Made by a program: the position numbers and the translations under genes
The notes under the pieces: generated by a model
Told to the model about the DNA's origin: nothing
Seen by the model: the letters and a program-made list of their open reading frames with translations, nothing else
Databases searched by the model: none
Part shown: one piece after another, positions 19,677 through 40,786 of the stretch
Position numbering within the stretch: position 1 is the first letter of the stretch
Layout of the letters: every line of letters starts with the position of its first letter
Origin: an uncultured Aequorivita sp.
GTDB taxonomy: Bacteria > Bacteroidota > Bacteroidia > Flavobacteriales > Flavobacteriaceae
Direction of reading: 5' to 3'
DNA: 64,000 nucleotides
Assembly (NCBI GenBank): GCA_937125455.1
Contig: CAKZLK010000002.1
Location: 1 to 64,000, forward strand

Positions 19677-20807
19677 TCACCCAATCACACTACTCAGCTT
19701 AAACATCGGCAAATACATCGCAACCAAAATAATACCCACAATAAGACCTACGAACAGGGTAAGCAAAAAATTAAGCACATTGGAGATGATCTGACCCTGG
19801 TATTTGATTTCGAGACTGTACTGGTCATAAAGTTTTTGGAATATATACTCGGTCTGGTTGGTCTCCTCCGCAACTTTTAAAAGCGCTATTAGTTTTTTAT
19901 CGTAGAACGGATGCTCGGCAAAACTTTCATCAAGCTTTTTTCCTTGTATGATATCTTTTTCTATAGACACTAGGGTCTTTTCCAATGGGTAGAACCTGAT
20001 CATATCGCGTACCAATGCAATTCCACTGACCACTGGGATACGGGCATTGGTAAGCAGGGCCATTGCCTGCGTAAACTGTATCAAGTAGATTTTCTTGATG
20101 TAATTGCCCATTACGGGAATCTTTATTTGGAGGTTGCCGATAAAGCGATAGTACCAATCCTTTTTGGAAACAGCCTTAAATAAGATTATCATCAATAGTA
20201 TTGATATAAAAACAATCCAACCATTGTTTACCACAAAACCCGAAAGTTTTACAATTACTTTAGTAAGCCACGGCAGTTCCACTCTATTCTGCTTAAAAAT
20301 ATCGACAAACATTGGCACCACATACCGTAGCATAAAGAAGACAACGCCGCAGGCGGTCAACAACACTATCAATGGATAGGAAAGGGATGTGATAAGCTGT
20401 CGCCTCAGTTCGGTCTTCCGGTTGAAGAATTCCCTGAGGTCGTTGGTTATTTTGTTCAACTGTCCCGTCTGTTCCCCGATTTTTACAGCATGGTATTCAT
20501 AGGGAGTGAAGTTTTTATTCTTTTGCAAAGCTTCTGACAGTGAGCTACCGGCGACGATCTGTTCAGAAATATCATCGATTAATTTTTTGTCCTTCTGCTT
20601 TTTTTGCATCTCTGAAATCAGGTCTAGGGCACGTTTCAGGTTTACCCCTGAATTGAGCAGCACGCTGAGCTCCGAATAAAACTGCTCCTTGGCCTTATTT
20701 GAAAAGAAATTGCCGAATAGCGATATCTCCCTGTTCAGAAAACTTGTTTTGCTTTTCTGGGTCTCTACTATTTTGGGCGAAGTTATATTTTCAAATTTAA
20801 TCCCCAT
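19677..20807 (-). CDS. gspF: Type II secretion / type IV pilus inner-membrane platform protein GspF
   Basis: The 376-aa protein has two repeated GspF domains. The first includes FYSELSVLLNSGVNLKRALD and GSSLSEALQ (about residues 40-105). The second includes FTQAMALLTNARIPVVSGIA and GKKLDESFAEHPFYDKKLIALLKVAEETNQ (about 240-320). Three membrane segments lie at about 145-165, 195-215 and 350-370. GspF anchors the pseudopilus assembly platform and contacts the ATPase GspE, which is encoded on the right half of the locus (35531-36931). It is last in a tight leftward operon and overlaps the pseudopilin gene by 11 bp. Confidence 0.92.
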   Translation of the reverse strand: MGIKFENITSPKIVETQKSKTSFLNREISLFGNFFSNKAKEQFYSELSVLLNSGVNLKRALDLISEMQKKQKDKKLIDDISEQIVAGSSLSEALQKNKNFTPYEYHAVKIGEQTGQLNKITNDLREFFNRKTELRRQLITSLSYPLIVLLTACGVVFFMLRYVVPMFVDIFKQNRVELPWLTKVIVKLSGFVVNNGWIVFISILLMIILFKAVSKKDWYYRFIGNLQIKIPVMGNYIKKIYLIQFTQAMALLTNARIPVVSGIALVRDMIRFYPLEKTLVSIEKDIIQGKKLDESFAEHPFYDKKLIALLKVAEETNQTEYIFQKLYDQYSLEIKYQGQIISNVLNFLLTLFVGLIVGIILVAMYLPMFKLSSVIG

Positions 20808-21270
20808 TTTCCTTTATTTGGCTATATGCATCTTTGCTCTGAAAGATAAATATAAAATCCCCTTTCTTTTCCCCGAAATTGATTTTTATGGCATCCATAT
20901 TTCCGGCTTCTACTTTTTCCCCTGAATTATATAGTTCAATATCCGTCAGCAAATCCAGTACGGTATCCTTTTCCCGTAGCACCCAATTTTCTTCCCAGAT
21001 ATAACTGACCGAATCCAGAGAATTTTTGAAAGTCAGTTCCCTTCCCAATGGATCGAAGCCGATGGTGTGGTATCTATTAAAATCCACGGTCAGTTGGTCT
21101 GTGAACAAACTGCGTTTGGTGCCTTTGCTGTAATTGTTTTCTATGCTCTGCATATTCTTGGTGAACAGGGTAATAATGGCAAAAGCAAGTCCTGCAACAA
21201 TTGCTGTGACTGCAAGAACAACGAGCATCTCGGTAAGGGTAAATGCGGGTATTTTTTTTTGAAACCTCAT
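20797..21270 (-). CDS. Type II secretion pseudopilin (GspJ/GspH-like)
   Basis: The 157-aa protein has a class III leader ending KKIPA, then FTLTEMLVVLAVTAIVAGLA: F at +1, E at +5 and a hydrophobic helix, the pattern cut by prepilin peptidase. Residue -1 is Ala instead of Gly. The globular part (FTDQLTVDFNRYHTIGFD, then LTFKNSLDSVSYIWEENWVL) fits minor pseudopilins of the J type. It overlaps both neighbours (GspF by 11 bp, the next pseudopilin by 4 bp). Confidence 0.82.
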   Translation of the reverse strand: MRFQKKIPAFTLTEMLVVLAVTAIVAGLAFAIITLFTKNMQSIENNYSKGTKRSLFTDQLTVDFNRYHTIGFDPLGRELTFKNSLDSVSYIWEENWVLREKDTVLDLLTDIELYNSGEKVEAGNMDAIKINFGEKKGDFIFIFQSKDAYSQIKENGD

Positions 21271-21584
21271 TCGGCAAGTTTTATCCGTACTTCCTTTCCG
21301 TTCTTTTTGTTCAGAACTTCTATCACTTTTTCACCTCCCTGTATTTCTATGCCAATATCCCAAAGTGCGGTGTCTTCATAAAAGGGAGCTTTTATTTTTT
21401 CGTTGTTGACAAAATAGGTCAGTTCATTGATCCGGTTCTGGAGTGCCGAGTCATCGGAATTGATGGTTCCCCGAAAAATATTGTTCAGGCTGAGACTGGC
21501 TATCAAAAAAACGATGACAATGATCACCGAGGCGACCATTGTTTCCACAAGTGTGGCCGATCTAACTTTTTTCAATATAACCAT
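21267..21584 (-). CDS. Small minor pseudopilin (GspI-like)
   Basis: The 105-aa protein reads KKVRSATLVETMVASVIIVIV near the N-terminus: cleavage would leave A-T-L-V-E with the conserved Glu at +5 and Ser at -1. Length and position between K-like and J-like genes match GspI. It overlaps the upstream gene by 13 bp and the downstream gene by 4 bp, so translation is coupled. The globular part is short and Lys-rich. Confidence 0.75.
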   Translation of the reverse strand: MVILKKVRSATLVETMVASVIIVIVFLIASLSLNNIFRGTINSDDSALQNRINELTYFVNNEKIKAPFYEDTALWDIGIEIQGGEKVIEVLNKKNGKEVRIKLAE

Positions 21585-22840
21585 TTTACTATGGCTTTAT
21601 CGGAATCCTTAAATGGGAGTCCCCCGAATGCAGGGTCAAGGTCACGCCCCAATACTTTTCCGTTATAGATGTGGTTGATGTAGACCGAACCAAATTCCCT
21701 TGCCAAAAAGCGATCTGCATAAATAGCGCCTTTTACCGTTCCCATTAACTCCACGTTCCCTTGGCAATATACATATCCGTTAACTGTTCCCATTGGACCA
21801 ATGGCTATATGCGTGAATGAATTCATTCTGTTTTCCATCTTCTCTTCCCGTTCGTCCAAATAGATAACCGTTCCTGTTATAGTAGATTTGTCGGCAATAA
21901 AAATAGGTTCTTTACCTTTCGGGACAGGTAGGTTTTCATCTATATCGGTATTCACTATAATCAAAGAAGAGGGATACTTTAGATGTACGTCCTCAGCAAT
22001 TATAATTTTTTCCTTGGCAATAAATGAGGCACTTCCATTAAAACCTTTTTCAATGGCAATCTTGGGAGCTATGACCAAAACATCGGTCAATTGTGCTTCT
22101 TTGGTTATTAAAATTTCGGTTTCGCTCTTGATGACAATGTTTCCAATATAGGTTTCATTTAGGGTAATCTTATTTTTATCATAAACAAATTGTGTATTTT
22201 CAAAAAAAGAATTTTTGTTGATGGCTTCCCGTTGGATTACTTCATCTGAATTTAAAGGAATATACTCCTGCAATCTTCTAATATCGTACAACCAAACAGG
22301 GTCAAGTTCGGGCAGGTCCCCTTTTCCCAAACTGATATTTCCCTTTACCAGTTCCTTGCCGTTGTAGTAATGACCGGAGATAATCCCTGGTTTTATTCCG
22401 AGATCAGAAATATAGGCATCGCCTTCTATAATGGTGTTTCCCACAAGCACCAAGGGGAGCTTATCCTCGGATAAATAAATACTTAGTGCAGGATCGGAAA
22501 CTTTGTTTCCTGTCAAGGCCATTTTGGAAAAATTTTTCGTCTTTGCCGAAGCGGTGCTGTTGATTTTTAAATATCCGCCCCAACTTGTTTTTTTAATATT
22601 TGTGACATATATGTCATTTTCAATTGAAATGGAGTCCGCTATTACGTGTTCTTTCTTTAGGGAATATTCAATTCCAGCAGTGGCACTGTCAATTACATTC
22701 CCCAAAATTTTTGACTGGGTATTAAAAAAAAGATGGGTCTGGGATAGGGTTAAAAAAGAACCTAAAAGTACAGCGATAATGGTAGCGACCAATATCGCAA
22801 ACTGCATCGCGGAGGCTTTTATTTTTTTTGGTCGTATCAC
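21572..22840 (-). CDS. GspK/PilX-like component with a bactofilin-like repeat region
   Basis: The 422-aa protein has a short basic leader and one N-terminal helix (SAMQFAILVATIIAVLLGSF) without a clear Glu at +5, as known for GspK. The rest contains repeated short beta units (GNTIIEGDAYISDLGIKPGI, GNIVIKSETEILITKE, GTVNGYVYCQGNVELMGTVK, GAIYADRF) resembling a bactofilin-like beta helix. By position it corresponds to the tip pseudopilin K of a T2SS. It overlaps its neighbours (4 bp upstream, 13 bp downstream). The assignment to K is positional. Confidence 0.6.
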   Translation of the reverse strand: MIRPKKIKASAMQFAILVATIIAVLLGSFLTLSQTHLFFNTQSKILGNVIDSATAGIEYSLKKEHVIADSISIENDIYVTNIKKTSWGGYLKINSTASAKTKNFSKMALTGNKVSDPALSIYLSEDKLPLVLVGNTIIEGDAYISDLGIKPGIISGHYYNGKELVKGNISLGKGDLPELDPVWLYDIRRLQEYIPLNSDEVIQREAINKNSFFENTQFVYDKNKITLNETYIGNIVIKSETEILITKEAQLTDVLVIAPKIAIEKGFNGSASFIAKEKIIIAEDVHLKYPSSLIIVNTDIDENLPVPKGKEPIFIADKSTITGTVIYLDEREEKMENRMNSFTHIAIGPMGTVNGYVYCQGNVELMGTVKGAIYADRFLAREFGSVYINHIYNGKVLGRDLDPAFGGLPFKDSDKAIVKWLY

Positions 22841-23304
22841 ATTATCGGGAATTTCTTGGTCTGACCCTCATGGCGGATAAAGATGTTCTCTTCTGAGCCT
22901 TTGATAATTTTTAGATTTTGGAGGGTATCCCCTTTTTTCAATAAATATTGCTGGCCATTGACGCTTACAATATAAACACTTGAGGTGGACTTTTTGTCGG
23001 CAACGGTCCCAAAATATCCTATGTCTGGCCATTGTTTCTCGCTTTTTGATTTATAGGTAGCATTTGCGTTTTGGGAAGTGGGCTTTGATTTTGAATAGAC
23101 CGTCCCCAAAAAAGGATCTGTTTCAACTGGAGCCAATGAAAAGGTATCCTTTTGGATTCCCTTGGGAGGTTTGAAGTTTGCTTTCTGTGTTTTGGCTATA
23201 TCGGTGCTCTCTGAACTGAAGGCATCGACAATTTTATAGATCAAAAACCCCCAGATTACAATTACCACGGACAAGAGTATCTTTATGTTTTTGTTGCCCT
23301 TCAA
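22837..23304 (-). CDS. GspC/PilP-like periplasmic connector
   Basis: The 155-aa bitopic protein has one membrane helix (ILLSVVIVIWGFLIYKIVDA, residues 9-28), a disordered linker, and a C-terminal domain (IGYFGTVADKKSTSSVYIVS, then GQQYLLKKGDTLQNLKIIKG) resembling the HR domain of GspC or PilP. These link the inner-membrane platform to the secretin. It overlaps the K-like gene by 4 bp (ATGA) and follows the FN3 lipoprotein by 2 bp. Confidence 0.78.
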   Translation of the reverse strand: MKGNKNIKILLSVVIVIWGFLIYKIVDAFSSESTDIAKTQKANFKPPKGIQKDTFSLAPVETDPFLGTVYSKSKPTSQNANATYKSKSEKQWPDIGYFGTVADKKSTSSVYIVSVNGQQYLLKKGDTLQNLKIIKGSEENIFIRHEGQTKKFPIM

Positions 23305-23306
23305 AA

Positions 23307-24242
23307 CTATTCGTTGGTTGTAAAACTAAAGACGGTGCTGTCATCACTTTGATTTCCCGCTTCGTCAAAAGCTTTCATATACCAGTAATAGGTCTCATTG
23401 GTGTCCAAAGTGGTCTCAAAGGGAGCGGTAACTTCATCCTTTAAAACCAAATCGGTAAGGTTCAGGTTCCGGTATACATAGATGCTATCAAACTCTACAC
23501 TGCCTTCTATTAAAGTTCTTGTCCAATCGAATGAGACCAATGGATTGGTGAGTATCTGCTCATCAGTAGGTGCCGTAAGGCTCGGAATATTTGGAGCGGT
23601 CTTGTCAACAAGGATATTTCGTGAGGAGTAAAGGGTGTATTGATTGTCCTTTTCAGCTCGTACCTGCCATTGTAGGCTGCCCTCTGGGAAAGTAATATCC
23701 AGATTTGTTTCGGTTGTTGTCTCGCTTTGTATGGGTTCTCCATTTTCATCCAGTACTTGAATTCTGTATTGGGTCGCTTCCAGTATCTCATCCCACTTTA
23801 AGTTAAAGGAATCTTCATTGGTAATGAGACCGTTTGATGGAGAAAGCAGGATTACGGTATTATTTGAAAAGTTCGTAATGGGTATTACTTTAAATTTTGC
23901 GGATGAATAGGCCGTAACATAACCACTGTTCTGTGCACGTACCCGCCACTCATATTCATTCTCGATCAATTCAATCTGATAGAAAGTGGAGTCTGTCACA
24001 GTATTTAGAACCAACTGATTTGCATTTGCAAAATTTGGGGTGGCAATCTGAATTTCATAATTGGTAGCCCCTTCCAAACTTTCCCAGTTAAAACGAACCG
24101 AATTGGCTTCTATCTCGGTATTGTTGGCCGGGGCTATCAGTGTTACGCTATCCTCACTGATTTCCTGCTCGAAGAGCACCTCTTCGCAGGAGTATGACCC
24201 AAGGATTAAAAAACATCCCAATATGTATTTGAAATTCTTCAT
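23307..24242 (-). CDS. Outer lipoprotein with three fibronectin-III-like repeats
   Basis: The 311-aa protein has a lipobox (LILGSYSC, Cys at about residue 19). Three repeats follow, with patterns such as LIAPANNTEIEANSVRFNWE, LLSPSNGLITNEDSFNLKWD and LTAPTDEQILTNPLVSFDWT, each with Y-x-W-R-V-R-A or a similar strand F motif. It is the second gene of the T2SS-like operon. It may act as pilotin-like or surface accessory protein, which is inferred only from operon position; a carbohydrate-binding role is also possible. Confidence 0.7.
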   Translation of the reverse strand: MKNFKYILGCFLILGSYSCEEVLFEQEISEDSVTLIAPANNTEIEANSVRFNWESLEGATNYEIQIATPNFANANQLVLNTVTDSTFYQIELIENEYEWRVRAQNSGYVTAYSSAKFKVIPITNFSNNTVILLSPSNGLITNEDSFNLKWDEILEATQYRIQVLDENGEPIQSETTTETNLDITFPEGSLQWQVRAEKDNQYTLYSSRNILVDKTAPNIPSLTAPTDEQILTNPLVSFDWTRTLIEGSVEFDSIYVYRNLNLTDLVLKDEVTAPFETTLDTNETYYWYMKAFDEAGNQSDDSTVFSFTTNE

Positions 24243-24923
24243 CTAAAATTTGAACTCGTTTTTCTTTTCCACTTTTTTAGCTGATTTGTAGGTATCTCCA
24301 CTGCATTCCGTTCCATCTGGCACGAGGTCAAAGATCTCGGGTTCCCTTCGTTTGTTTAGTCCCCAACAAAATTCGGTTGTTCTGAACTTAACAATTTTAC
24401 CATCGGTAAATTCTATCTGGTTGAAAACTTTGTTATTTTTTAAAAGACTTAGTGATAGTGTTTTTGCTTTGCTTTGGATCAAATATACTTCATCAGAGGA
24501 TTGTACCTCTTGCAAGATAGCTTTTGGAAAATGAACGGTAACTTGGGAAATCAACCTATACTTCTCATTCTTGCGAAGATATTTCATCAACTCTTTGTCC
24601 GCATTGATCTGTTTTAGTAATCCCACTTTGTCCAAAACCTTAAAAGAAATAAGGATGCTGTCTTTTTGTGTTTGGCTTAGGGAATCTTTTTTTATAAAAA
24701 TTTCTCTTTTTTGGATTTTTATCTCTTCCCATTGGAGCCGTACCGGTTCGAATAAATTTGTAATTGTTTTGGGCTGGTAGTCATTTCCTAAAAGATAGGT
24801 GGTATATATGCCCAGTGTTCCCAGTTCGGGCAAGGAGGTATTTGTAGACTGCTTGTACTGAATGGGTCTACAGGAAGCAGCAACAAAGAAAAGTAAAATA
24901 TAAACTGGTCTCAAGGGCGACAT
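24243..24923 (-). CDS. Lipoprotein, first gene of the leftward T2SS-like operon
   Basis: I start at ATG 24923 because it gives a clean lipoprotein signal (MSPLRPVYILLFFVAASC); the longer frame adds a non-signal-like stretch. The 226-aa protein has no known family; it ends ECSGDTYKSAKKVEKKNEFK. It abuts the FN3 lipoprotein gene directly. A TTG/TACATTTG promoter sits just upstream. It could be a pilotin for the secretin GspD, inferred from its place in the locus. Confidence 0.68.
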   Translation of the reverse strand: MSPLRPVYILLFFVAASCRPIQYKQSTNTSLPELGTLGIYTTYLLGNDYQPKTITNLFEPVRLQWEEIKIQKREIFIKKDSLSQTQKDSILISFKVLDKVGLLKQINADKELMKYLRKNEKYRLISQVTVHFPKAILQEVQSSDEVYLIQSKAKTLSLSLLKNNKVFNQIEFTDGKIVKFRTTEFCWGLNKRREPEIFDLVPDGTECSGDTYKSAKKVEKKNEFKF

Positions 24924-24963
24924 TATTTTAGGGATTAAATATACTTGATGGTAATGGATTGAA

Positions 24964-24994
24964 CAAATGTAATTGCATTGAATCAACGAAACAA
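24964..24994 (-). promoter_or_regulatory. Promoter of the leftward T2SS-like operon
   Basis: The reverse strand has TTG (24992-24994), 20 nt, then TACATTTG (24964-24971), matching the Bacteroidota -33/-7 pattern. The start of transcription would be near 24957, about 34 nt before ATG 24923. The seven leftward genes behind it overlap or nearly touch, so one promoter could serve all. Confidence 0.6.
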
Positions 24995-25233
24995 AAAAAG
25001 GCCGTAAAGTATATTTCCAAAATCAAAACGCTACTCAGAATAAAAGGTTAAGCCAAAAACCAAGTTCAAATTTTCAAAGATCGTTTTGCAATTAGTGTTC
25101 TTCTAGTATAATCCAATGAGCGGCACACTATACCTTAAGATGACCGTAAAGATAGCACTGCTGTAAACTTCAAGAGCAAAGAATTTATCATATTGTCAAA
25201 AATAAGTAAACGTTTAAACTGGATAGGGCGCAT

Positions 25234-25263
25234 AAAGTGAGCCACTTGCAGGTGGTTCACTTT
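25234..25263. repeat. Inverted repeat, 12-bp arms, possible transposon-end remnant
   Basis: AAAGTGAGCCAC (25234-25245) pairs with GTGGTTCACTTT (25252-25263) with one mismatch and a 6-nt loop. A third partial copy (GCTCACTTT) lies at 25279-25287. Repeated transposase-binding sites of this kind occur at the ends of IS21-family elements, but no transposase gene is present. Apart from this and the T2SS promoter I see nothing in 24995-25328. Confidence 0.45.
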
Positions 25264-25328
25264 CACACGCCGAGCTATGCTCACTTTAATCCGCTGTGGG
25301 TGGTATACTATGCCCGTTTTTTGCAACT

Positions 25329-25667
25329 ATGTTATCTAGAGAAGAAAGGCAAGATGTTGAAGTTGAAATTACTAAATTTCAAATGTACTTGAATGATATT
25401 GACAAGAAACTTCCAAGTAATAAATTGGTTTACGACCATACATTTTTATTCTTTCAGAAAATACTTGGATATCACAATGCACCTATTTTTTTTAATCCTT
25501 CTCCGAACAAATATGCTTCGCTATTATTTATGTGGCAACCGTATGTTTTGAATGAGTTAGATATATTCGATGAGGATTCTTTTCAGAATATAAATAAAGA
25601 AAATGATGATGTATACCAAATTTCATTAGCCGATATAAAATCATATATCAAAAGTATGACTGATTGA
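25329..25667 (+). CDS. Small hypothetical protein
   Basis: A 112-aa frame from ATG 25329 (MLSREERQDVEVEITKFQMY) to TGA 25667. The longer frame from 25296 is not used because the extra residues overlap the transposon-like repeat region. It is acidic, has no signal peptide or membrane helix, and ends in DIKSYIKSMTD. It is the only rightward gene between two leftward operons. No family recognised. Confidence 0.5.
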   Translation: MLSREERQDVEVEITKFQMYLNDIDKKLPSNKLVYDHTFLFFQKILGYHNAPIFFNPSPNKYASLLFMWQPYVLNELDIFDEDSFQNINKENDDVYQISLADIKSYIKSMTD

Positions 25668-25717
25668 AAATGTACTCTTTAAATTCAATCTATTCTAGTA
25701 TTGAACCACTTATTTCC

Positions 25718-25921
25718 TTACTCTGTATTCTCCAAATCGGTGTTTTTATTTGAATCTTTACTTGCCTTTCCAAAAATTTTACTAAAGGGTATAGAGGGCA
25801 TCACTTTTGCAATAAAATTCCCTATCAATGTTATTCTGTCTTTCTTAATCACATTAAGGATTAGCGTCATTACAATTATAAATCCAAAGATAATTAAAAG
25901 TGTTATGTGGATACTATTCAT
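25718..25921 (-). CDS. Small single-span membrane protein
   Basis: The 67-aa protein has one N-terminal membrane helix (ITLLIIFGFIIVMTLILNVI) followed by a basic then acidic cytoplasmic or periplasmic tail. No homologue recognised. It lies about 390 bp downstream of the RHS-B2 immunity candidate, in the same direction but behind a terminator, so it is probably a separate unit or a leftover orphan immunity gene. Confidence 0.4.
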   Translation of the reverse strand: MNSIHITLLIIFGFIIVMTLILNVIKKDRITLIGNFIAKVMPSIPFSKIFGKASKDSNKNTDLENTE

Positions 25922-26157
25922 TTGTTCTAAATTTTAATTCATCCTGTTATTGAATATTATGATAGCATCATATTTCTAAAAGTCAATAGTTCTTTTAAAA
26001 ATAAAATGACATCATCTTTTCGCAATCTAAAAAGGAAGATTGAATTAAGTTGTGACATGAAAAAAGACACACTATCTCTACCTGCGAAAAGCAAGGTATT
26101 TAAAGGGATTATAATAAAAAATAACACTTTTATAAAACGAGTTGAGGTATTGGCAAT

Positions 26158-26184
26158 AAAAAAAGCAACCGTTTTAGGGTTGCT
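26158..26184 (-). terminator. Rho-independent terminator of the second RHS operon
   Basis: On the reverse strand AGCAACC pairs with GGTTGCT (26178-26184 and 26164-26170, 7-nt loop), followed by at least six T. It lies 125 bp after the stop of the small membrane protein gene at 26309. The rest of 25922-26308 holds no supported gene. Confidence 0.7.
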
Positions 26185-26308
26185 TCTCTAATTGTAAATA
26201 TTTCGTTTTATATTATTCTATAAATTCATTTTAAGTAATCGATTAGTCTTATCAATTACTCGCTAATTTCACAATTACATTCTCAGTAAATTTTAATACT
26301 AATTACTA

Positions 26309-26605
26309 TTAAGATATACTTTTCTTGCGAAAAAATAACTTTGTCAAAAAATAGATAATAACTGCATAAAAATTTAAATTAAGAAAAATTCCCATGAAAT
26401 TAGCTAGCGTTGACTTTAGGTTAAATAAATAATTAATTGGAAATTGAAAAATTTCAGCTAGTCCAATTATTGTGGCATTTATAATTTTTCCATAATCAGA
26501 TGTTTCCATCATAATACTCTCATACATAAACCCAGTTATAAAATATGTGATTAATAGAATAAGGAAAATAGCAATATGGAAACTTATTTTATATTTAATT
26601 TTCAT
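26309..26605 (-). CDS. Small polytopic membrane protein, candidate immunity protein for the RHS lipase-like toxin
   Basis: The 98-aa protein has about three hydrophobic segments (FHIAIFLILLITYFITGFMY, IINATIIGLAEIFQF, and LNLNFYAVIIYFLTKLFF). It starts 6 bp after the RHS-B2 stop and is followed by a terminator, so it forms the last gene of the operon. A membrane location suits protection against a lipase or other membrane-acting tip. Immunity is inferred from position; no family recognised. Confidence 0.58.
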   Translation of the reverse strand: MKIKYKISFHIAIFLILLITYFITGFMYESIMMETSDYGKIINATIIGLAEIFQFPINYLFNLKSTLANFMGIFLNLNFYAVIIYFLTKLFFRKKSIS

Positions 26606-26611
26606 GCTGAT

Positions 26612-30784: not shown

Positions 30785-30794
30785 AGCTGGATGA

Positions 30795-33700: not shown

Positions 33701-34283
33701 CAAAACCATCAAGAATCATTTCCACTTTAAGTCCATTTTGCGGCATCATTAATATGCCAGAATATTCTCCCACAATGTCCTGTTTTTTTTTGTTGTCAAA
33801 TAAAAACTTTCCTGAGTGCCCCATAAAGTTATACATATAGATATCCGTCTCAGTATCCGCATCCTCACCTCCTGCAGCAAATAAAAAATCCATCGCCTCT
33901 TGACTATAAAAGCCCACTTCATGAATTTCTTTATCTGGCAGGATATTTACACGTTCCTCGTCTGGCTTGTCTCTAATTACCCTAGAGATAACCCCACCAG
34001 CATTCAAGCTCCATCCGAGGCCTACATTAGAGGAGAGTTGATCGACCTTAATCCCGTTTGAACTATAGCTTAATGAAATTGGGACAGAAAGGTTTCTAGT
34101 ATTATAAGTATACAAAGGAATCGAAACATTTGGCGTCCCAGTAAACATTCCAACGGGAACTTGACCATACTTTCCCAGTTCATATGCGGTTGGAGAGGGA
34201 GGAACAATCTTTGGGAGATCGATATTCTGACTGTAAAAAAAAATAGATGAGAATGCAAAGAGAAGGAAACAATACTTTTTCAT
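30795..34283 (-). CDS. Large secreted RHS-repeat protein, N-terminal partner (RHS-A2)
   Basis: I start at ATG 34283 (MKKYCFLLFAFSSIFFYSQN, a clear signal peptide), giving 1162 aa; an in-frame ATG at 34328 would add 15 unsuitable residues and lies in the conserved leader. The N-terminal part (PTAYELGKYGQVPVGMFTGT, then VPISLSYSSNGIKVDQLSS) parallels RHS-A1. The C-terminal part shares WGYHGLYPVAKIE, TDPKGFKMIYEYDDYGRL and the final QYRY. There is no core and no toxin tip. Together with RHS-B2 it forms a second two-gene RHS operon. The first two-thirds are AT-rich and divergent from RHS-A1, the last 250 residues conserved. Confidence 0.85.
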   Translation of the reverse strand: MKKYCFLLFAFSSIFFYSQNIDLPKIVPPSPTAYELGKYGQVPVGMFTGTPNVSIPLYTYNTRNLSVPISLSYSSNGIKVDQLSSNVGLGWSLNAGGVISRVIRDKPDEERVNILPDKEIHEVGFYSQEAMDFLFAAGGEDADTETDIYMYNFMGHSGKFLFDNKKKQDIVGEYSGILMMPQNGLKVEMILDGFEITTPDGVVYSFKEQEITGCRTYGSGQHSVPEVPAITAWYLTKIEHPKGDIVNFIYEESNSFTYDIGISDALSVLMPYFQYGCQNYAGSQNVNSTYSRLRTLNPKRLIKISSNEPDFGEVLFESNVSHPEISSFKLISSIIVKDNAPVPATKSQFDFNYITTDNDRILLNEIQYLDPEKSYSFDYYNPSEIPARLTNSTDYYGYYNGKANLGKNRYPNPNDPFIRSYIYPQFLYYSLSDDGSDKTIDPTKAINGLLKEVHYPTKGYNEFEYEANSYNEMTTVYPNEHNVHLNLSAISEYGDVPQVVEDIGQTQKIIFDQLVKFKLNIGLPYDPHSPCHTSPPSKPLKVRLSITDDLNNNIDIMRETVSGMIVIPNNTLFQVGYPSPNDYYSVEFKKDRIYTFTLSTEWKCTETWTDIVYRSSDTPYEASQNITTGGMRLKRVKSFDTPTSLAPNNIVRYYYGKKDDLSVSSGQKGPRPYYITNSIYRESCSGADYDITYQSLNSNSVRQLYNSSDSGSINYKYVTVSYGGDNFEGGGVENEYLIMPDVQGNIIHGAAIDGSPWVNSGWGNGLLKRETVFKKEDNEILLLKEVSNSYKKVDSVFARNYGYTVNKMFQLTKYIDITYNCTQEDVLKHEKDWYCATNHKHVYLIHDIPFLPNTPTRNCIASGHNMKWRWVGNPCYQKPVNHLIIYDKMLENLNIMEYSNNSYWFYQNSSITKEYDDNGNFAQTTTYYYYDNPQHLQQTRVEKTTSTDNKKLIVQTDYANDLGIQGLIDDYRIAEPVQTRSFKKVGEGPEQLLSTQRTEYDNFGGQYLPKFIQTLKGEAQGSLQLESRIIYHSYDGYGNPKEVSKVGGAHISYIWGYHGLYPVAKIENATYAQAMGVGGLNMSIIEDPSTGNLDAELDKIRNGLPNAQVTTLTYIPLVGVHTVTDPKGFKMIYEYDDYGRLQYVMDMDNNVLSENQYRYIND

Positions 34284-34376
34284 AAATTGGATAGTTTTGA
34301 AAGTGTAAAAAGTGTTTATTTTGGACATAGCAAACCCATGTCAAATTCTGTAAAACGAATTAAAAGGGGAGAGTTT

Positions 34377-34408
34377 CAAATATATAAAAATTTAGTTTTC
34401 TTTAACAA
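34377..34408 (-). promoter_or_regulatory. Promoter of the RHS-A2/B2 operon with conserved leader
   Basis: TTG (34406-34408), 21 nt, TATATTTG (34377-34384) on the reverse strand. Spacing and boxes are identical to the promoter at 17346-17377. The leader down to ATG 34283 is about 88 nt and shares the CTCCCCTTTTAATT and TTGC-ATG blocks with the first operon. Confidence 0.7.
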
Positions 34409-34598
34409 ATAAAAAACGGAATTTTCGATGAAATGTAATTTTTATATCATCAAATTTTTTAGGATAAAAATCAAGTTAATAGCGTAAGTAATTATATATG
34501 TGATACTTGATTTTAGATATTCTAATAATATAGAATTCTTTTAAATTAGTAGTTAGTATATTATTTACCAAAATTTTAATACTTTATCGGAGTTATTA

Positions 34599-34606
34599 TA
34601 TATTTG
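34599..34606 (+). promoter_or_regulatory. Predicted -7 box of the rightward T2SS-like operon
   Basis: TATATTTG on the plus strand, with the same wider context (TATATATTTGAAA) as the divergent RHS-A2 promoter. Transcription would start near 34613, about 26 nt before ATG 34639. No exact TTG -33 box at 19-21 nt; TTT is present instead. The two promoters share an intergenic space of 355 bp (34284-34638), which holds nothing else I recognise. Confidence 0.45.
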
Positions 34607-34638
34607 AAAATTATTGAATCTGAAAGTTGAAACCTGCG

Positions 34639-35040
34639 ATGAGATTAAAAAGAACTAACGCCTTTACCCTCAATGAGATGCTGATGGTATTGGCCATTAT
34701 AGGAATACTTCTTTTGTTGGCGCTTCCGACTTTTATGCCCCTCATTTCAAAAACCAAGGCGCAGGAAGCAAAAATACAGCTGAAATACATTGCCAATCTA
34801 CAGACCCAGTACCGTTATCTCAATTCCAAATACACGATGGAATTCAACGAACTTGATTTCGAGGCTCCGAAAACTGTCAATGAGGGTGGGACAGCCAATT
34901 ATAGATATGAAGTGATCGAGGCTTCAACTGGAAATTTTAAGGCTCGCGCGGAGGCAATTGTAGATTTTGACGGGGATGGAGTGTTCAATATTTGGGAGAT
35001 CGATGAGAATGGCAACCCCAAGGAAGTGGTTAAAGACTGA
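34639..35040 (+). CDS. gspG: Major pseudopilin GspG-like
   Basis: I start at ATG 34639 (MRLKRTNAFTLNEMLMVLAI); a TTG 12 bp upstream is less likely. The 133-aa protein has a class III leader cut before FTLNE (Glu at +5) with Ala at -1, then a long hydrophobic helix and a pilin-like body (KAQEAKIQLKYIANLQTQYR, typical of GspG). The end DGDGVFNIWEIDENG holds an acidic, possibly calcium-binding loop, as in T2SS major pseudopilins. It is first in the rightward operon; its stop overlaps the peptidase start. Confidence 0.85.
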   Translation: MRLKRTNAFTLNEMLMVLAIIGILLLLALPTFMPLISKTKAQEAKIQLKYIANLQTQYRYLNSKYTMEFNELDFEAPKTVNEGGTANYRYEVIEASTGNFKARAEAIVDFDGDGVFNIWEIDENGNPKEVVKD

Positions 35041-35531
35041 TGCTTATTACAGTCAAAATTTTCTTGTCCCTATCCCTTTTACTTATATTTTTTCAGGATT
35101 ATAGAGATCGACAGGTATTTATTTTTCTGTTTCCACTTTTTGGTATTATGGGAACTTATTTATTTCTTTCTAATTCCAATCTTGAATATTATTTTTTTTC
35201 TGTTTGTATAAATCTAGGAATCGTCTTAATCGTAGTTTTACTGAATTACCTTTTTGCAGAACTGGTACTCAAAAAAAATCTTTTAAAGGAAGCTATGGGC
35301 CTGGGGGATATACTCTTCTTTATTGCTTTTGCACTTTGTTTCCCTACGGTTACATTTATAAATTTCTTTGTTTTCTCCATTTTGTTTACATTCGTTATTC
35401 ACCTTGCCCTATCCAAACTGTTGAAGAAAACAAATAAAAATATTCCATTAGCGGGCTATATGTCCCTTTTTTTGATGGCCGTTTATTCGGTGAACTGGCT
35501 TGGTTTATATGATTCCCTATACCTACTGTGA
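35040..35531 (+). CDS. gspO: Prepilin peptidase (A24 family, without methylase domain)
   Basis: The 163-aa polytopic membrane protein has the two catalytic Asp of A24 aspartic peptidases: D in FFQDYRDRQV (about residue 20) and GLGDILFF (about 86). It lacks the N-terminal cytoplasmic methylase domain with CxxC pairs found in proteobacterial GspO/PilD, so it probably only cleaves. It sits between pseudopilin G and ATPase E and would process all pseudopilins of the locus. Start overlaps the gspG stop by 1 bp; its own stop overlaps the gspE start by 1 bp. Confidence 0.87.
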   Translation: MLITVKIFLSLSLLLIFFQDYRDRQVFIFLFPLFGIMGTYLFLSNSNLEYYFFSVCINLGIVLIVVLLNYLFAELVLKKNLLKEAMGLGDILFFIAFALCFPTVTFINFFVFSILFTFVIHLALSKLLKKTNKNIPLAGYMSLFLMAVYSVNWLGLYDSLYLL

Positions 35532-36931
35532 TGAAACGATTTGAGATACCCGTTGCCCTTAAGCAGCTGATTACGCCAAATCAGGCTTTTCACTACCGGA
35601 TTGTTCCAATTGAGGAAAAGGATGGCATTGTGCTAGTAAAAAGCGACAATCCAAAATTGAAGACTTTGGCATCGGAACTGGAAGTCCTGTTAAATTTCAA
35701 AATAAGTCTTATCTCCGAATCCTCAGAAAACATCCAGTCCTATCTCACCTACAACTATCGACAGGCCACTGCTGAAACACAGGAACTGCACGCTTCCAAT
35801 TTTCTAGAACGATTGCTCCAGACTGCAAAGGATTTTAATAGTAGCGATATCCATTTGGAAATATATGAGGCCCATTGTAGGGTACGCTTTCGGTTGGATG
35901 GCAAGCTGAAGGAACAATACACCATTCCACAGATTGAATATCCACAGCTCATCAATCAGATAAAAATACAAGCGGGACTTGATATCTCGCAAAAACGTCT
36001 TTCGCAAGATGGTCGTATTACTGTTAAGGCGGCTTCTGATGATTTTGATATCCGGGTCTCAACAATGCCCACATTATATGGAGAAAAAGTGGTACTTCGT
36101 ATATTAAAACGCGATGCACAGGCAGTAGACCTTCAACAGCTCGGTTTCAATCCACGGGAACTCAAACTATACTTAGAAGGTGTGAAAATGCCTAATGGGA
36201 TTGTGCTTATCTCTGGTCCGACGGGTTCAGGTAAAACAACCACTCTCTATGGAACTCTTAAACTTTTAAACAAGGAAGAAACAAACATCCTCACCATAGA
36301 GGATCCCATTGAATATACCCTAGACGGGATTAACCAAGTTCAGTTGAAAGAGGATATTGGGTTTGACTTCCCTACTGCTTTGCGTACATTTCTGCGACAG
36401 GATCCTGATATTATTATGGTCGGTGAAATACGTGACGAAAAAACAGCCAATATGGCCATCAAAGCTGCCCTAACGGGGCATTTGGTTCTTTCTACCATCC
36501 ATACCAACTCCGCTTGGGCGACCATTTCCAGATTGATTGATATGGGAGTGCCTCCCTATTTATTAGCAACCACCCTAAATATGAGTGTAGCGCAACGCTT
36601 GGTGCGGAAGTTATGTTCCCATTGTAAAAAGGAAGATATCATTTCGGAAGACTTGTTCCCTGAAAGTTTTACTGAAACTTCCACCATTCAAAAACATTTT
36701 GTGGCGGTGGGCTGCAATCATTGTTACTATACAGGTTATGATGGCAGAAAAGCGGTGTATGAGATAATTCCCATCAACAAAGAACTGGAAACCGCGATCA
36801 AGCACAATGAATTACAAATAGATGATTATCTTGCATCGCATAATTTGAATACGCTCAAAACAAATGCCATTGAAATGATAAACAAGGGTGAGACATCCAT
36901 TGATGAGGCCTATTCGCTATTGGCAAACTGA
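35531..36931 (+). CDS. gspE: Type II secretion ATPase GspE
   Basis: ATG 35531 is chosen over GTG 35528; 466 aa. It has an N-terminal GspE/PilB domain, then SDIHLEIYEAHCRVRFRLDG, Walker A GPTGSGKT at about residue 230, the Asp box EDPIEYTLDGINQVQ, Walker B PDIIMVGEIRDEKTA and the His box GHLVLSTIHTN. A four-Cys zinc site is present (CSHCKKE and CNHCYYTGYDGR). It hydrolyses ATP at the inner membrane to drive pseudopilus assembly with GspF (19677-20807) and GspL. The N-terminal domain is short compared with proteobacterial GspE. Confidence 0.95.
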   Translation: MKRFEIPVALKQLITPNQAFHYRIVPIEEKDGIVLVKSDNPKLKTLASELEVLLNFKISLISESSENIQSYLTYNYRQATAETQELHASNFLERLLQTAKDFNSSDIHLEIYEAHCRVRFRLDGKLKEQYTIPQIEYPQLINQIKIQAGLDISQKRLSQDGRITVKAASDDFDIRVSTMPTLYGEKVVLRILKRDAQAVDLQQLGFNPRELKLYLEGVKMPNGIVLISGPTGSGKTTTLYGTLKLLNKEETNILTIEDPIEYTLDGINQVQLKEDIGFDFPTALRTFLRQDPDIIMVGEIRDEKTANMAIKAALTGHLVLSTIHTNSAWATISRLIDMGVPPYLLATTLNMSVAQRLVRKLCSHCKKEDIISEDLFPESFTETSTIQKHFVAVGCNHCYYTGYDGRKAVYEIIPINKELETAIKHNELQIDDYLASHNLNTLKTNAIEMINKGETSIDEAYSLLAN

Positions 36932-36940
36932 TAAATTAAT

Positions 36941-39073
36941 ATGAGAAAGATACTTTTAAGCTTACTGTTACTGCTCTTAGTTTTTGGGACTGGCTTTGCT
37001 CAGGACGATAGCCGAATCAATTCCATTCGCAACCAGTTTGAGATCTTAAAGTTGGATGCCCCAGGGCTTGAGGAAATCATCAACATTAACATTACTCAGA
37101 CTACCCTATCAAATTTTTTGCTCGCCATTGCCAAGGTGCACACCTTGAACATAAATGTTTCCCCAGAACTAAGCTCAATTTCCATCGTCAATAATTTTTC
37201 CAATGTAATGGTCGGGGATGTACTGATATTTCTGGTCAAGGAGTATCAACTTGATATTGATTTTACAGGCAATATTTTATCGATAAAAAAATATAATGAG
37301 CCACAGCCAGAGGTCAGGGAAAAAGAAATCAATGCCTCATATTCAATGGCAAACGGCAATCTAAGCCTTGATCTCAAGAATGATAGACTGGATAAGGTTT
37401 TCCGAAAGGTTATGGACATCTCGGGGAAAAATCTTCTATATTCTCCAGAAATAGAATCTAGTCCCCTTTCGATTTACATAAAAGATGTACCGTTTGATCT
37501 AGCGATGGAAAAGCTTGCCGAATCCAACAACCTGCTCTTCTCAAAATCACGGGATGGGTTTTATGTTTTTGATTCGGCCTATGTTCCTTCAGAAGGAGGC
37601 AATTCTTCTGCTGAAAATACAAGACCCATCCGCAGGGGTAGGACCAACTTTTATTATAAGATTACTGATACCTTGGAGCGCAAGGTAACTGTTGACCTTC
37701 AGAATACTCCCATAGCCGATGTAATATATACTATCGGTGATGATCTTAATCTGGATATATTCACGGCCTCCCCACTCGACAATGCAGGAGTTGCTACTGT
37801 AAATGCGGAAAATATATCGTTTGATCTTTTATTGGACAAAATTTTTGAAAGCTCTATCGGCTCACAAAAAAGCAACCAAGGAGGAAACGACGGAAAAAAC
37901 AATGACCAAAATTTTACCTATACCAAAGATGGGGATGTCTATTATTTTGGAACGGAGAACCAGCTTTCCCTAAAGCAAACGGAACTAGTCCCGATGATGT
38001 ACCGTTCCGTTCAATTACTCTCAAATCCATCAGGAAACGCGCAGCGTAAGGCATCGAGAAATACGAGCGGTGTTAACTCAAACACTTATTATGATTCAAA
38101 CCCATCAAACAGCCAAAACCAACCACAAAATTATAGAAACAATAATAATAGAGGTTCAGATACTGGCAATAGTGGTTCAGGACTTTCCTCGATTGAGAAT
38201 ATTTTACCCGATGATATAAAAAATGGGATCGACATAAAAATTGATGCTGAACTCAATAGTTTTGTCGTCAGCGGTCCTGGTATAAAAGTGGAAAAGTTCA
38301 AGGATTTTATTAAATATATTGATAAACCCGTTCCGGTAATACTTATTGAGGTAATGATATTGGAGGTAAACCGAAGCGCTATTGTTGAAACGGGAATATC
38401 CTTTGGCCTGGGCGAAAAACCAACTACTACTCAGGGAGGAATTTTCCCTTCCACTGATCTTCGTTTGAATGCTAACAGGGTAAATAGAATTATAGGTGGC
38501 TTTAATGGTTTTGGCACACTGAACCTTGGGCAGGTATTGCCTGAATTCTATTTGGACATTAAGGCCATGGAAAGCAACGGAAAGATCAAGGTGCTCTCCA
38601 CTCCAAAATTGAGTACCCTCAATGGACACAAGGCATATCTCTCAAGCGGTCAGACCACCTATTACGCAGTTACCACACAAAGTTTTTATGGGTCGCAGAT
38701 TCCCCAAACTTCAGAAATAACCAACTATGTTCCAATAGATGCAGAACTTGCCCTTGAAATTATGCCCATTGTTGCGGGAGATGGGGAAATAACCCTTGAT
38801 ATCCAAGTTATCCAATCGACATTTAATGGTGAACGGATTGCCGAGGATGCCCCGCCGGGAATAAACAGTAGGGAATTCTCTTCCATCATACGTATGCGGG
38901 ATCAGGACGTGGCCATACTTGGCGGTATCGAGGAAGTCCGCAAGGACGATTCGGGCTCAGGAGTTCCTTTATTGGCACGTATCCCGGTCATCAAATGGCT
39001 TTTCAGTAAGAAAAGACGGGAGGATAGCAACCGGAAGTTGAACATACTCATCAAACCTACCGTAATCTATTGA
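36941..39073 (+). CDS. gspD: Secretin GspD/PilQ-like
   Basis: The 710-aa protein has a signal peptide (ending TGFAQ, about 20 residues), N-terminal STN/N0-like repeats (for example NITQTTLSNFLLAIAKVHTL and YSPEIESSPLSIYIKDVPFD), and an Asn/Ser/Gly-rich linker at about residues 370-425. The secretin domain includes PVILIEVMILEVNRSAIVET, VLSTPKLSTLNGHKAYLSSG and VAILGGIEEVRKDDSGSGVP. It forms the outer-membrane pore for folded substrates. No S-domain is obvious, so pilotin dependence is uncertain. It follows gspE by 9 bp. Confidence 0.93.
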   Translation: MRKILLSLLLLLLVFGTGFAQDDSRINSIRNQFEILKLDAPGLEEIININITQTTLSNFLLAIAKVHTLNINVSPELSSISIVNNFSNVMVGDVLIFLVKEYQLDIDFTGNILSIKKYNEPQPEVREKEINASYSMANGNLSLDLKNDRLDKVFRKVMDISGKNLLYSPEIESSPLSIYIKDVPFDLAMEKLAESNNLLFSKSRDGFYVFDSAYVPSEGGNSSAENTRPIRRGRTNFYYKITDTLERKVTVDLQNTPIADVIYTIGDDLNLDIFTASPLDNAGVATVNAENISFDLLLDKIFESSIGSQKSNQGGNDGKNNDQNFTYTKDGDVYYFGTENQLSLKQTELVPMMYRSVQLLSNPSGNAQRKASRNTSGVNSNTYYDSNPSNSQNQPQNYRNNNNRGSDTGNSGSGLSSIENILPDDIKNGIDIKIDAELNSFVVSGPGIKVEKFKDFIKYIDKPVPVILIEVMILEVNRSAIVETGISFGLGEKPTTTQGGIFPSTDLRLNANRVNRIIGGFNGFGTLNLGQVLPEFYLDIKAMESNGKIKVLSTPKLSTLNGHKAYLSSGQTTYYAVTTQSFYGSQIPQTSEITNYVPIDAELALEIMPIVAGDGEITLDIQVIQSTFNGERIAEDAPPGINSREFSSIIRMRDQDVAILGGIEEVRKDDSGSGVPLLARIPVIKWLFSKKRREDSNRKLNILIKPTVIY

Positions 39074-40284
39074 TGCTATCCAAACTGAGATCATATTGGG
39101 ATTACGGAAATACCTTTTGTGGTATTGAACTAACCACGGTTGAGGGCAAAGAAAAGTTATATGGTGTTACTGCAAAAAAGAAGCAGGGAGAGTTTACCGA
39201 TCTGGAGTATTTGCAGTTTCCTTCCTTACTGGAAGTCGGTAAAAATCTTCCAGATCATCAACACTGCTTTCTGGTTATAAATTCAGATAGGGTACTTATC
39301 AAAACCGTTTCTTTCCAAGAAAGCGACCCAAAAACAGTTTCAAACGCGTTCCCCGGACTATCGCTTGTAGATTTCTATTTCGAAATATTAAAAACGCCCT
39401 ATGGCAGTCTTTTAGCCGTATGCCGAAAGGACTATGTCCAAAACATCATAAAAGAACTGGAACAACAGAAAATACATGTTTTGGGCTTTCATTTGGGAAT
39501 CACCTCCCTTCAGGTATTGACATCTTTGTTTAAAGAGGAAAAAATAATTGTCCCTCGTTACCAAATCGGCATCGAAGAAAACAGTATAAGGGATATTGTT
39601 CCCCATCAAAATCATAGCGGAACAATTTATGAATTGGAGGACATAAAGGTAATGTCAGAATTTTTACTGTCACTCGGTCTCCTCTCCAGTTATACAGGTG
39701 CTGGTTTAGATTCATCCAATAATTTCGGGGATGAAAACAAACATCTTTTTAATCAACATCAGGAAAAGAATTTCTTTAAAAAAGGAATGTTTTTGGGAGT
39801 TGGTTTGTTGTTGGTTTCTTTATTGGTCAATACTTTTTTTTTCAACGCATATTTTAAAAAAGAACAACAGCTGAATGAGGAATTGGTTTTTATGGAAACA
39901 CAACAAAAAGGGATGGAAAGCAAGATGGAAGAGGTAAATAAAAAAGAGAAACTGGTTGACCATATTTTGAACAGCGGCTCTTCCAAAAGCTCCTACTTTA
40001 TCAACAAGATTATTGCCTTAAAACCTTCAACTATTGGTTTTTCAGATATTCAATACCAGCCCTTAAACAGATCCATTCGACCCGATAAACAAATAGAATA
40101 TTCCCAAAACAGTATTGTTGTTTCTGGTGAGAGTAAGGATAAAGATGAGTTTTCACAGTGGATTACGGATCTGGGCAAACTGAAATGGGTAGAAAAGGTA
40201 AGTGTTGTAAATTATGGGAACGTAAGTAAAGGCGTAAATTCTTTTTCCATAACAATAGCGTTAAAAAATGAATCCAAGGACTAA
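39073..40284 (+). CDS. GspL / PilM-PilN fusion-like assembly protein
   Basis: ATG 39073 is used, overlapping the gspD stop by 1 bp; 403 aa. The first 230 residues resemble a reduced actin-like cytoplasmic PilM/GspL domain. One membrane helix follows (GMFLGVGLLLVSLLVNTFFF, about residue 240), then a coiled coil and a ferredoxin-like periplasmic PilN-type domain. It would couple GspE to the periplasmic platform together with the M-like protein, whose gene overlaps its end by 17 bp. Confidence 0.78.
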   Translation: MLSKLRSYWDYGNTFCGIELTTVEGKEKLYGVTAKKKQGEFTDLEYLQFPSLLEVGKNLPDHQHCFLVINSDRVLIKTVSFQESDPKTVSNAFPGLSLVDFYFEILKTPYGSLLAVCRKDYVQNIIKELEQQKIHVLGFHLGITSLQVLTSLFKEEKIIVPRYQIGIEENSIRDIVPHQNHSGTIYELEDIKVMSEFLLSLGLLSSYTGAGLDSSNNFGDENKHLFNQHQEKNFFKKGMFLGVGLLLVSLLVNTFFFNAYFKKEQQLNEELVFMETQQKGMESKMEEVNKKEKLVDHILNSGSSKSSYFINKIIALKPSTIGFSDIQYQPLNRSIRPDKQIEYSQNSIVVSGESKDKDEFSQWITDLGKLKWVEKVSVVNYGNVSKGVNSFSITIALKNESKD

Positions 40285-40786
40285 AAATATTCTTCTTGTT
40301 ATATGGTTTTTCCTATCAATGGCAATTGCCTATAATCTGGCATTTTCCAAAACTTTTATTTTAAAAGAAAGGATAAATAAAATGAATATAAAGACCAAGT
40401 CTCTTGAGAATACTGTTGTTATTGCCTCCAATCTTGAACAACGCGAGCAATTCGTGGATTCCATATTAAACCTCAACAACATGAAAGGAAATTCCGTTCA
40501 AAACAACCTTTTAGAATTTTTGAATACAAAATCTGAATCAGAGGGTTTTACTATTTCGGATTTTAACGAACCCCATACCTTTTCACAGGATGGTGCTACC
40601 ACAACATCCTATAGGTTTACATTGGAAGGAAGCTATGAGGAGATTGAACAAGTTCTCTATAGTTTGGAACAGGAATATAATTTTGGGCAAATTGCCCATG
40701 TACATTTTGAGAAAAAAAAGGATTACAGAAAGGGCAAGGATTATCTGGAATGTTTTGTGATTGTGGAGAGCTTAGTTTCAGAATGA
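40268..40786 (+). CDS. GspM/PilO-like assembly protein
   Basis: The 172-aa bitopic protein has a membrane helix (ILLVIWFFLSMAIAYNLAFS, about residues 8-27), a short coiled coil, and a ferredoxin-like domain (TTTSYRFTLEGSYEEIEQVL, then FGQIAHVHFEKKKDY), the layout of PilO/GspM. It pairs with the PilN-like part of the upstream protein. It is last in the rightward T2SS-like operon; 105 bp later an IS3 element begins. Confidence 0.75.
   Translation: MNPRTKNILLVIWFFLSMAIAYNLAFSKTFILKERINKMNIKTKSLENTVVIASNLEQREQFVDSILNLNNMKGNSVQNNLLEFLNTKSESEGFTISDFNEPHTFSQDGATTTSYRFTLEGSYEEIEQVLYSLEQEYNFGQIAHVHFEKKKDYRKGKDYLECFVIVESLVSE

Follow-up and report, generated by a model that had tools for sequence, protein, structure and literature searches.

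A candidate RHS toxin cargo for a type II secretion-like machine in Aequorivita and its relatives

Which cargo is carried by the machine of Bacteroidetes that resembles a type II secretion system (T2SS) is an open question, and a specific cargo candidate makes it testable. Such a machine is encoded in the stretch of DNA studied here, 64,000 nucleotides from an uncultured Aequorivita sp. of the Flavobacteriaceae (assembly GCA_937125455.1, contig CAKZLK010000002.1, positions 1 to 64,000; hereafter the window), where it is accompanied by two pairs of large RHS genes, each comprising an RHS-A and an RHS-B gene. Is the machine the exporter of these proteins? The association of machine and RHS across genomes is real (STATISTICALLY), and we consider it likely, on the genomic evidence set out below, that a machine derived from the type IVa pilus (T4aP) exports a two-part RHS toxin cocoon as its main cargo.

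In the window, the second gene of each pair encodes the DUF6443 domain together with the RHS core TIGR03696. We drew 395 genomes evenly from the window's family and counted secretin and DUF6443, finding secretin in 79 and DUF6443 in 88; both were present in 73 genomes, secretin only in six, DUF6443 only in 15, and neither in 301. DUF6443-RHS thus occurs in 73/79 genomes with secretin versus 15/316 without (odds ratio 244, p = 1e-56), an enrichment that a preliminary description of this DNA had proposed to look for, and linkage is enriched too (below). The pattern recurred when counted by genus (n = 203; both in 59, secretin only in five, DUF6443 only in nine, neither in 130; p = 3e-35) and within the window's genus, where secretin was found in four of 28 genomes, DUF6443 in five, and both in three (p = 0.011); in two of these three (G001 and G007), the distance between secretin and DUF6443 frames is 12 to 24 kb.

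We then considered the machine-bearing genomes as a set of 80, made up of the 79 from the family draw and one further genome (G021). A profile of the long RHS-A N-terminus recovered RHS-A in 78 of these, and DUF6443 is present in the other two (G254 and G374), so that in the family draw the machine never occurs without RHS: once the RHS-A partner is also searched, RHS is found in 80/80. The same profile matched none of 31 genomes lacking both secretin and DUF6443. The idea that secretin-only genomes lack RHS was rejected. In three genomes (G021, G209, and G267), large RHS-A/B genes that the DUF6443 model misses occupy the same slot as in the window, and elsewhere RHS-A lies at a contig end (G077), about 21 kb from the secretin (G196), or on other contigs (G097 and G303). 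In marine relatives of Aequorivita, the machine is thus nearly always co-inherited with the large, hollow-shelled RHS proteins, and this points to RHS as a main part of its cargo.

For the converse case, we searched for the E ATPase in 49 DUF6443-bearing genomes without secretin (15 from the family draw, two from the genus, and 32 from a phylum draw). In one of them (G389), a contig end truncates the E gene (E = 1e-80); three others gave weak matches (best 6e-9), and 45 gave none. Across the phylum, secretin matches include PilQ of pili, such that presence alone is uninformative; we instead picked 27 genomes with a T2SS-like secretin, by score and length, from 172 with any secretin (six in the window's family and 21 outside, leaving out five family genomes counted earlier). 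DUF6443 lies within 25 kb of the secretin in 16/27 of these, including 13/21 outside the family, where the distance is about 6 to 14 kb.

The layout of the window agrees with the preliminary description, which had reported a T2SS-like set in two halves with one RHS operon between them and a second adjoining. The 13 machine genes are split between a left half-operon (19677-24986, minus strand) and a divergent right one (34627-40786, plus strand); RHS pair 1 (26612-34328, minus) sits between them and RHS pair 2 (9510-17249, minus) beyond the left half. Features are listed by coordinates and strand, with the basis of each assignment in brackets.

8047..8907, minus: orphan RHS core with alternative tip, downstream of pair 2 (phmmer match to RHS-B)
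9510..13769, minus: RHS-B of pair 2 (PF20041, that is DUF6443, E 2e-35; TIGR03696 E 5e-15)
13791..17249, minus: RHS-A of pair 2 (RHS-A family membership)
19677..20807, minus: F-like inner-membrane platform protein (PF00482 E 1.9e-41)
20797..21270, minus: J-like minor pilin (N_methyl PF07963 E 7e-6)
21267..21584, minus: putative I-like minor pilin (PF07963 E 0.003, below cut-off; gene order kept in relatives)
21572..22840, minus: large minor pilin in the K position (AlphaFold pTM 0.83; best Foldseek match ComZ, E 3e-5)
22837..23304, minus: putative C/PilP-like protein (position and conservation; in Pfam only CdsD_C, E 0.017)
23307..24242, minus: FN3-type lipoprotein of the machine (fn3 E 9e-4, below cut-off; matched in both machine subtypes)
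24243..24986, minus: second machine lipoprotein (no Pfam match; order conserved; matched in long-secretin loci only)
26309..26605, minus: candidate immunity gene for RHS pair 1, a 98-amino-acid (aa) membrane protein (named by position; Pfam uninformative)
26612..30784, minus: RHS-B of pair 1, TcC-like half shell with RHS core and variable tip (PF20041, DUF6443, E 1e-39; TIGR03696)
30795..34328, minus: RHS-A of pair 1, TcB/SpvB-like half shell (AlphaFold pTM 0.68)
34329..34626, no strand: divergent intergenic region of 298 bp between RHS-A and pilin G
34627..35040, plus: G-like major pilin (N_methyl E 3e-4; best solved relative PilA)
35040..35531, plus: prepilin peptidase O (PF01478 E 1.4e-4, below curated cut-off)
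35528..36931, plus: E ATPase (PF00437 E 1e-125)
36941..39073, plus: D secretin of 710 aa, long subtype (PF00263 E 1e-36; the genome's only secretin match)
39070..40284, plus: putative L, PilM/PilN-like (PF05137 E 0.003, below cut-off)
40268..40786, plus: putative M, PilO-like (T2SSM_b E 0.012, below cut-off; order conserved)

The source genome (3.73 Mb) has four DUF6443 matches beside its single secretin; two of the four are inside the window, and the other two (contigs 43 and 52) also belong to RHS-A/RHS-B pairs. The genus also holds Aequorivita sp. CIP111184, with a secretin 87% identical.

Physical linkage follows the same pattern as co-occurrence. Distances were computed after removal of two secretin rows, a 1025-aa frame from G323 and a fragment of 54 aa from G154, and of 18/228 DUF6443 matches for which the position was missing or which were fragments of a frame already in the list. 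Among 190 located DUF6443 genes of machine-bearing genomes, 54 fall within 25 kb of a secretin, where 2.3 would be expected under uniform placement in 4.2 Mb, and 47 of the 73 co-occurring genomes have a DUF6443 gene within this distance. The slot between the half-operons is often filled by RHS genes in the 30 relatives inspected (28 with two stretches, two with short contigs; for example, G071, G113, G150, and G174). We also examined 80 named loci, which are the best matches to the secretin alignment with 10 kb on either side and therefore represent nearest relatives rather than a random draw. Here, RHS-A was labelled in 53/80 loci (58 frames), RHS-B in 31/80 (39 frames), and either in 56/80, with RHS-A as the direct divergent neighbour of G in 17/80; the J-like pilin family was present in 21/80. 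Recurrent neighbours other than machine genes were RHS, a family of lectin-headed proteins, and an OmpH/Skp-like protein with a lipoprotein, any other family appearing in at most six of the 80 loci. Chance placement of two RHS operons next to the machine was rejected on the strength of co-occurrence, linkage, and this neighbour census.

Machine and RHS also match by subtype. Secretins fall into two classes by length, long (about 700-776 aa) and short (633-655 aa), and within 30 kb we found 44 pairings of a long secretin with a standard DUF6443 frame and 14 of a short secretin with a giant one (>=2,900 aa); cross-pairings numbered one for short with standard (a 521-aa frame in G107) and none for long with giant. 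The long RHS-A type is present in all 19 short-only genomes; the notion that it is confined to machine-bearing genomes was rejected, as it also occurs in 10/49 secretin-less DUF6443 genomes. Most short-class loci inspected share the order K, I, J, F, G, O, E, D, L, M, lipoprotein, C, chaperone, lipoprotein, RHS-A (about 2,000 aa), and giant RHS-B. The Skp/OmpH-like protein (PF03938, E = 9e-22) and its lipoprotein each occur in 19/80 named loci, and neither was found in 20 RHS stretches of secretin-less genomes. They stand beside the long RHS-A (for example, L157:6865-7398 and L098:523-1023), and the Skp-like protein could be a dedicated periplasmic chaperone; the window has the simple RHS form, without this protein and lipoprotein. 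Some machine loci also contain, beside RHS pairs, a protein of 1,246-1,284 aa with IWYFGE near its start (L086:15450-19286; similar in G123 and G254), of which the copy in G174 has a PKD domain and a CHU_C domain of the type IX secretion system (T9SS). From co-occurrence, linkage, and subtype matching taken together, we read machine and RHS as a unit.

What kind of machine is it? The preliminary term "T2SS-like" holds to the extent that secretin D, ATPase E, and platform F lie in one locus, with PF00263, PF00437, and PF00482 all over cut-off. Against solved relatives, E scored 348 bits with PilB and 313 with GspE, G scored 36 with PilA and 17 with GspG, and D scored 95 and 80 with PilQ and 79 with GspD. 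The K-position protein, modelled by AlphaFold as a pilin helix followed by a beta domain and a beta-helix, had been labelled K-like; that likeness to GspK was not borne out, and its closest fold is ComZ, the competence pilin of Thermus. No second ATPase family is frequent across the 80 named loci (PilT was not searched genome-wide). In a published classification, the "so-called T2SS of Bacteroidetes" is grouped with T4aP, as a possible new secretion system derived from them (PMC6668835). Given the scores of E and G with their nearest solved relatives, the ComZ-like pilin, and this grouping, the machine is probably a relative of the type IVa pilus rather than a true T2SS.

The RHS proteins themselves, judged by sequence and models, resemble a Tc-like cocoon divided into two proteins, each with a Sec-like signal. 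The modelled RHS-A of pair 1 matches TcdB1 (Foldseek E = 5e-17) and the SpvB N-domain (E = 4e-6), and for RHS-B, compared by sequence, the family profile matches YenC2 (E = 4e-9 over about 180 residues). Tips of the RHS-B proteins differ after the RHS core: by eye, that of pair 1 has a GxSxG motif and that of pair 2 a metallopeptidase-like motif (Pfam M10/M66 E about 0.016, below cut-off). Pieces of orphan RHS core and tip span 6751-8907 downstream of pair 2, as is typical of polymorphic toxin loci. Sec-like signal peptides, recognised by eye, begin all four RHS proteins of the window, and none of the four matched a T9SS sorting domain (Por_Secre_tail or CHU_C) at E<=0.1, both as had been described beforehand. 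Across the named loci, a crude signal-peptide score picked out 27/28 RHS-A and 11/12 RHS-B proteins but also 19/80 E ATPases, and is hence weak. Pfam revealed no surface anchor in any of the window's four RHS proteins and no TcA among those proteins of the window to which it was applied (the genome as a whole was not searched), and TIGR02542 (TANFOR) had no match in nine RHS proteins scanned.

RHS-A/RHS-B operons are also found in machine-less genomes (20 stretches in 18 genomes), and a strict dependence of the RHS pair on the machine was therefore rejected. In many of these cases the pair is preceded by another gene, that of a putative carrier some 480-570 aa long, in which repeats of the propeller type are combined with a T9SS sorting domain (TIGR04183 over cut-off; PF18962 E = 5e-11). 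Leaving out RHS-A frames <=650 aa, it directly precedes RHS-A in 18/43 cases in secretin-less genomes versus 2/39 unlinked cases in machine-bearing genomes (p = 9e-5; 82 stretches). Its profile had no match in the 80 named machine loci, and gave two weak matches in the window plus 30 relatives (E = 3e-7 and 4e-7, frames of 846 and 670 aa). In a tree of RHS-A (FastTree, 103 rows, omitting rows <=850 aa, long-type rows, and rows holding X; long branches, no bootstrap), the carrier label changes at least eight times and is intermixed with machine-linked RHS-A. From the distribution of the carrier and the mixed tree, we infer one RHS cocoon with exchangeable exporters, either the machine or the T9SS carrier; the T9SS-tagged propeller protein is a possible piggy-back carrier for RHS cocoons. 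In distant secretin-less genomes, a gene of 390-521 aa lies directly upstream of RHS-A (L285, L287, L288, L290, L291, and L293); it mostly ends in an FRxGY-like C-terminal strand and could be another carrier. Likeness to PorP/SprF, noticed by eye in eight upstream genes of distant machine-less genomes, had no Pfam support in the six scanned, and we make no claim of it.

The lectin-headed family shares a signal-like start, a variable head, and one common C-terminal coiled-coil tail with the motif LLEKIEELTLY. Among 15 proteins scanned, seven had a Pfam match over cut-off to a lectin-type or carbohydrate-binding head (malectin, laminin G, F5/8 type C, or CBM96) or to fn3, and eight had no head over cut-off. 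Family density per 100 kb is 7.3 in machine loci versus 0.95 in 82 stretches around RHS genes that lie elsewhere; RHS and lectin-headed genes are both present in 30 named loci, and 14 have neither. The genes often stand several in a row, sometimes directly upstream of RHS-A (for example, L204:5427-7142, L207:6060-7094, L196:3198-4373, and L110:708-7523). The idea that these frames are orphan RHS tails was rejected, since inspection showed a separate family joined to RHS-B only by single linkage.

How might the machine and its cargo work together? Sec would move RHS-A (TcB/SpvB-like) and RHS-B (TcC-like) separately across the inner membrane, in keeping with the signal peptides seen, and in the periplasm the halves, to judge from their fold relatives, would fold and close around the tip. 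The Skp/OmpH-like chaperone and lipoprotein, seen in relatives and absent from the window, may assist in some subtypes. The large ComZ-like pilin could contact the cargo, and an ATPase-driven pilin piston would then push the folded cocoon out through the secretin. At many relatives' loci, the lectin-headed coiled-coil proteins would likely serve as further cargo or as partners in targeting. Competing bacteria are the probable target of the toxin, given the orphan tips and the candidate genes for immunity. RHS pairs located elsewhere in machine-bearing genomes probably use the machine in trans, and in lineages without it the co-encoded T9SS-tagged propeller protein may often stand in. Generalising more tentatively, at somewhat less than even confidence, we propose that Bacteroidota have evolved from T4aP, independently of the T2SS, an exporter of split TcB/TcC-like cocoons, with lectin-headed partners, and that the cocoon backbone has repeatedly been re-plumbed to and from the T9SS propeller carrier.

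Several observations weigh against export of RHS as the machine's main cargo, or against the carrier as its substitute. No listed DUF6443 gene lies within 25 kb of the secretin in 26/73 co-occurring genomes, and 24/80 named loci have no RHS within about 10 kb. The association tests treat genomes or genera as independent. RHS is not entirely tied to the machine: DUF6443 remains in 14/315 machine-less family genomes after G389 is moved to the machine-bearing side; in a phylum sample of 374 genomes, 65 have DUF6443, of which 32 have some secretin and 33 do not. In the genome from which the window comes, the carrier precedes each of the two unlinked RHS pairs (L237:11652-13253 and L238:2223-3824, on contigs 43 and 52); in machine-less genomes it is lacking for 25/43 RHS-A (three at a stretch edge), and its 18 occurrences there derive from two families (11/11 pairs in family f2, 7/18 in the window's family, and 0/14 elsewhere). 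A closed shell of the size of an RHS cocoon may also be tight for a secretin. Finally, RHS is not alone as a candidate cargo, since the lectin-headed proteins may be exported too or take part in targeting. In this respect, the preliminary proposal of a dedicated RHS exporter gained from co-occurrence, linkage, and subtype matching, while "dedicated" is perhaps too strong with a second family present in 40/80 loci.

These points bear differently on the alternatives. We regard as rather unlikely a general system, T2SS-like or an adhesive pilus, that exports several cargoes, of which lectin-headed adhesins are the chief ones and RHS is one, or a minor one. The 122 lectin-headed frames with their common tail in 40 of the 80 named loci would suit such a system, as would the 6/21 picked genomes outside the family that have a T2SS-like secretin and no DUF6443 match, and Cytophaga hutchinsonii, where mutants of the homologous machine show cellulose-adhesion and outer-membrane phenotypes, losing adhesion to cellulose and an outer-membrane protein with bulk extracellular proteins barely altered (PMC5553014). 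We infer that a lectin-headed cargo would fit this adhesion phenotype. Set against this are the presence of RHS in every machine-bearing family genome, its place beside the machine in more of the named loci than the lectin-headed family, the tracking of secretin subtype by RHS subtype, and the window itself, which has RHS and no lectin-headed protein. Display of RHS on the cell surface via the machine, as a contact weapon that is not released, is unlikely; it fits our explanation up to the last step, and a lipoprotein gene does lie next to RHS-A at some loci, while large RHS proteins with signal peptides in myxobacteria are thought to be surface-located (PMC10433427). The fold relatives, however, are closed cocoons rather than filaments, and the Pfam scan returned no anchor.

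A very unlikely account is that machine and RHS merely sit on a common variable island whose gain and loss reflect ecology and not export, the RHS proteins leaving by the T9SS carrier, vesicles, or lysis. It would accommodate RHS pairs without a machine, the proximity of a window RHS pair to conjugative-element genes, and the T9SS-tagged partners of both unlinked pairs in the window's genome; yet unlinked RHS genes also track the machine, secretin and RHS subtypes match, and 37/39 unlinked pairs in machine-bearing genomes have no T9SS carrier. Export of the RHS cocoon by the machine remains the explanation we favour.

Other genes of the window flank these features. Genes of a conjugative or mobilisable element (type IV coupling protein (T4CP)-like, DUF5712, DUF6876, and SSB) occupy 534-5019, 4-9 kb from RHS pair 2; a Cas2-like gene (17801-18052; PF09827 E = 3e-8) lies between that pair and the machine, CRISPR genes not otherwise having been searched for; and an IS3-type transposase with rve domains (40892-41881) is directly 3' of M.

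Among known systems, the nearest counterpart of the machine is the putative T2SS of C. hutchinsonii, with a similar component list and divergent L, M, C, and minor pilins (PMC5553014); its homology to the machine of the window is drawn from the component list, and the same source lists Fjoh_0611-0622 of Flavobacterium johnsoniae as homologous to it. This Cytophaga system, the best studied relative, was tied to the use of cellulose as well as to adhesion; cargo related to cellulose was proposed there, Rhs going unmentioned in the main text. The T4aP placement of PMC6668835 agrees in direction with our scores; no cargo is proposed in its available sections, and the RHS linkage and two secretin subtypes are additions of the present analysis. 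In the literature searched (subscription papers and preprints being outside its scope), we found no published pairing of Rhs with the Bacteroidetes T2SS-like machine, in line with the preliminary view that this pairing was not established, and no mention of DUF6443.

On the side of the cargo, the BC cocoon of Tc toxins (TcdB/TccC and YenB/YenC2) is likewise made by two neighbouring genes, RHS-A corresponding to TcB and RHS-B to TcC; it differs in that both halves in the window have Sec-like signals and that the TcB propeller is not evidenced in RHS-A. Release of the Yersinia entomophaga Tc toxin is by lysis dependent on a type X secretion system (PMC10847048). Rhs effectors linked to the type VI secretion system (T6SS), such as RhsA, Tse5, and RhsP, have the RHS shell and core domain in common with the RHS of the window, which in contrast has Sec-like signals, a split shell, and a secretin machine in place of VgrG and the T6SS. 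The TANFOR toxins of Bacteroidetes resemble the RHS of the window in having signal peptides and a gene-neighbourhood link to a two-step secretion system, and differ in their other N-terminal domain and their link to T9SS (PMC7073777). If our reading is true, the Sec-exported RHS toxins of Bacteroidota gain two candidate routes across the outer membrane, and a split Tc-like cocoon is placed in ordinary marine and soil bacteria.

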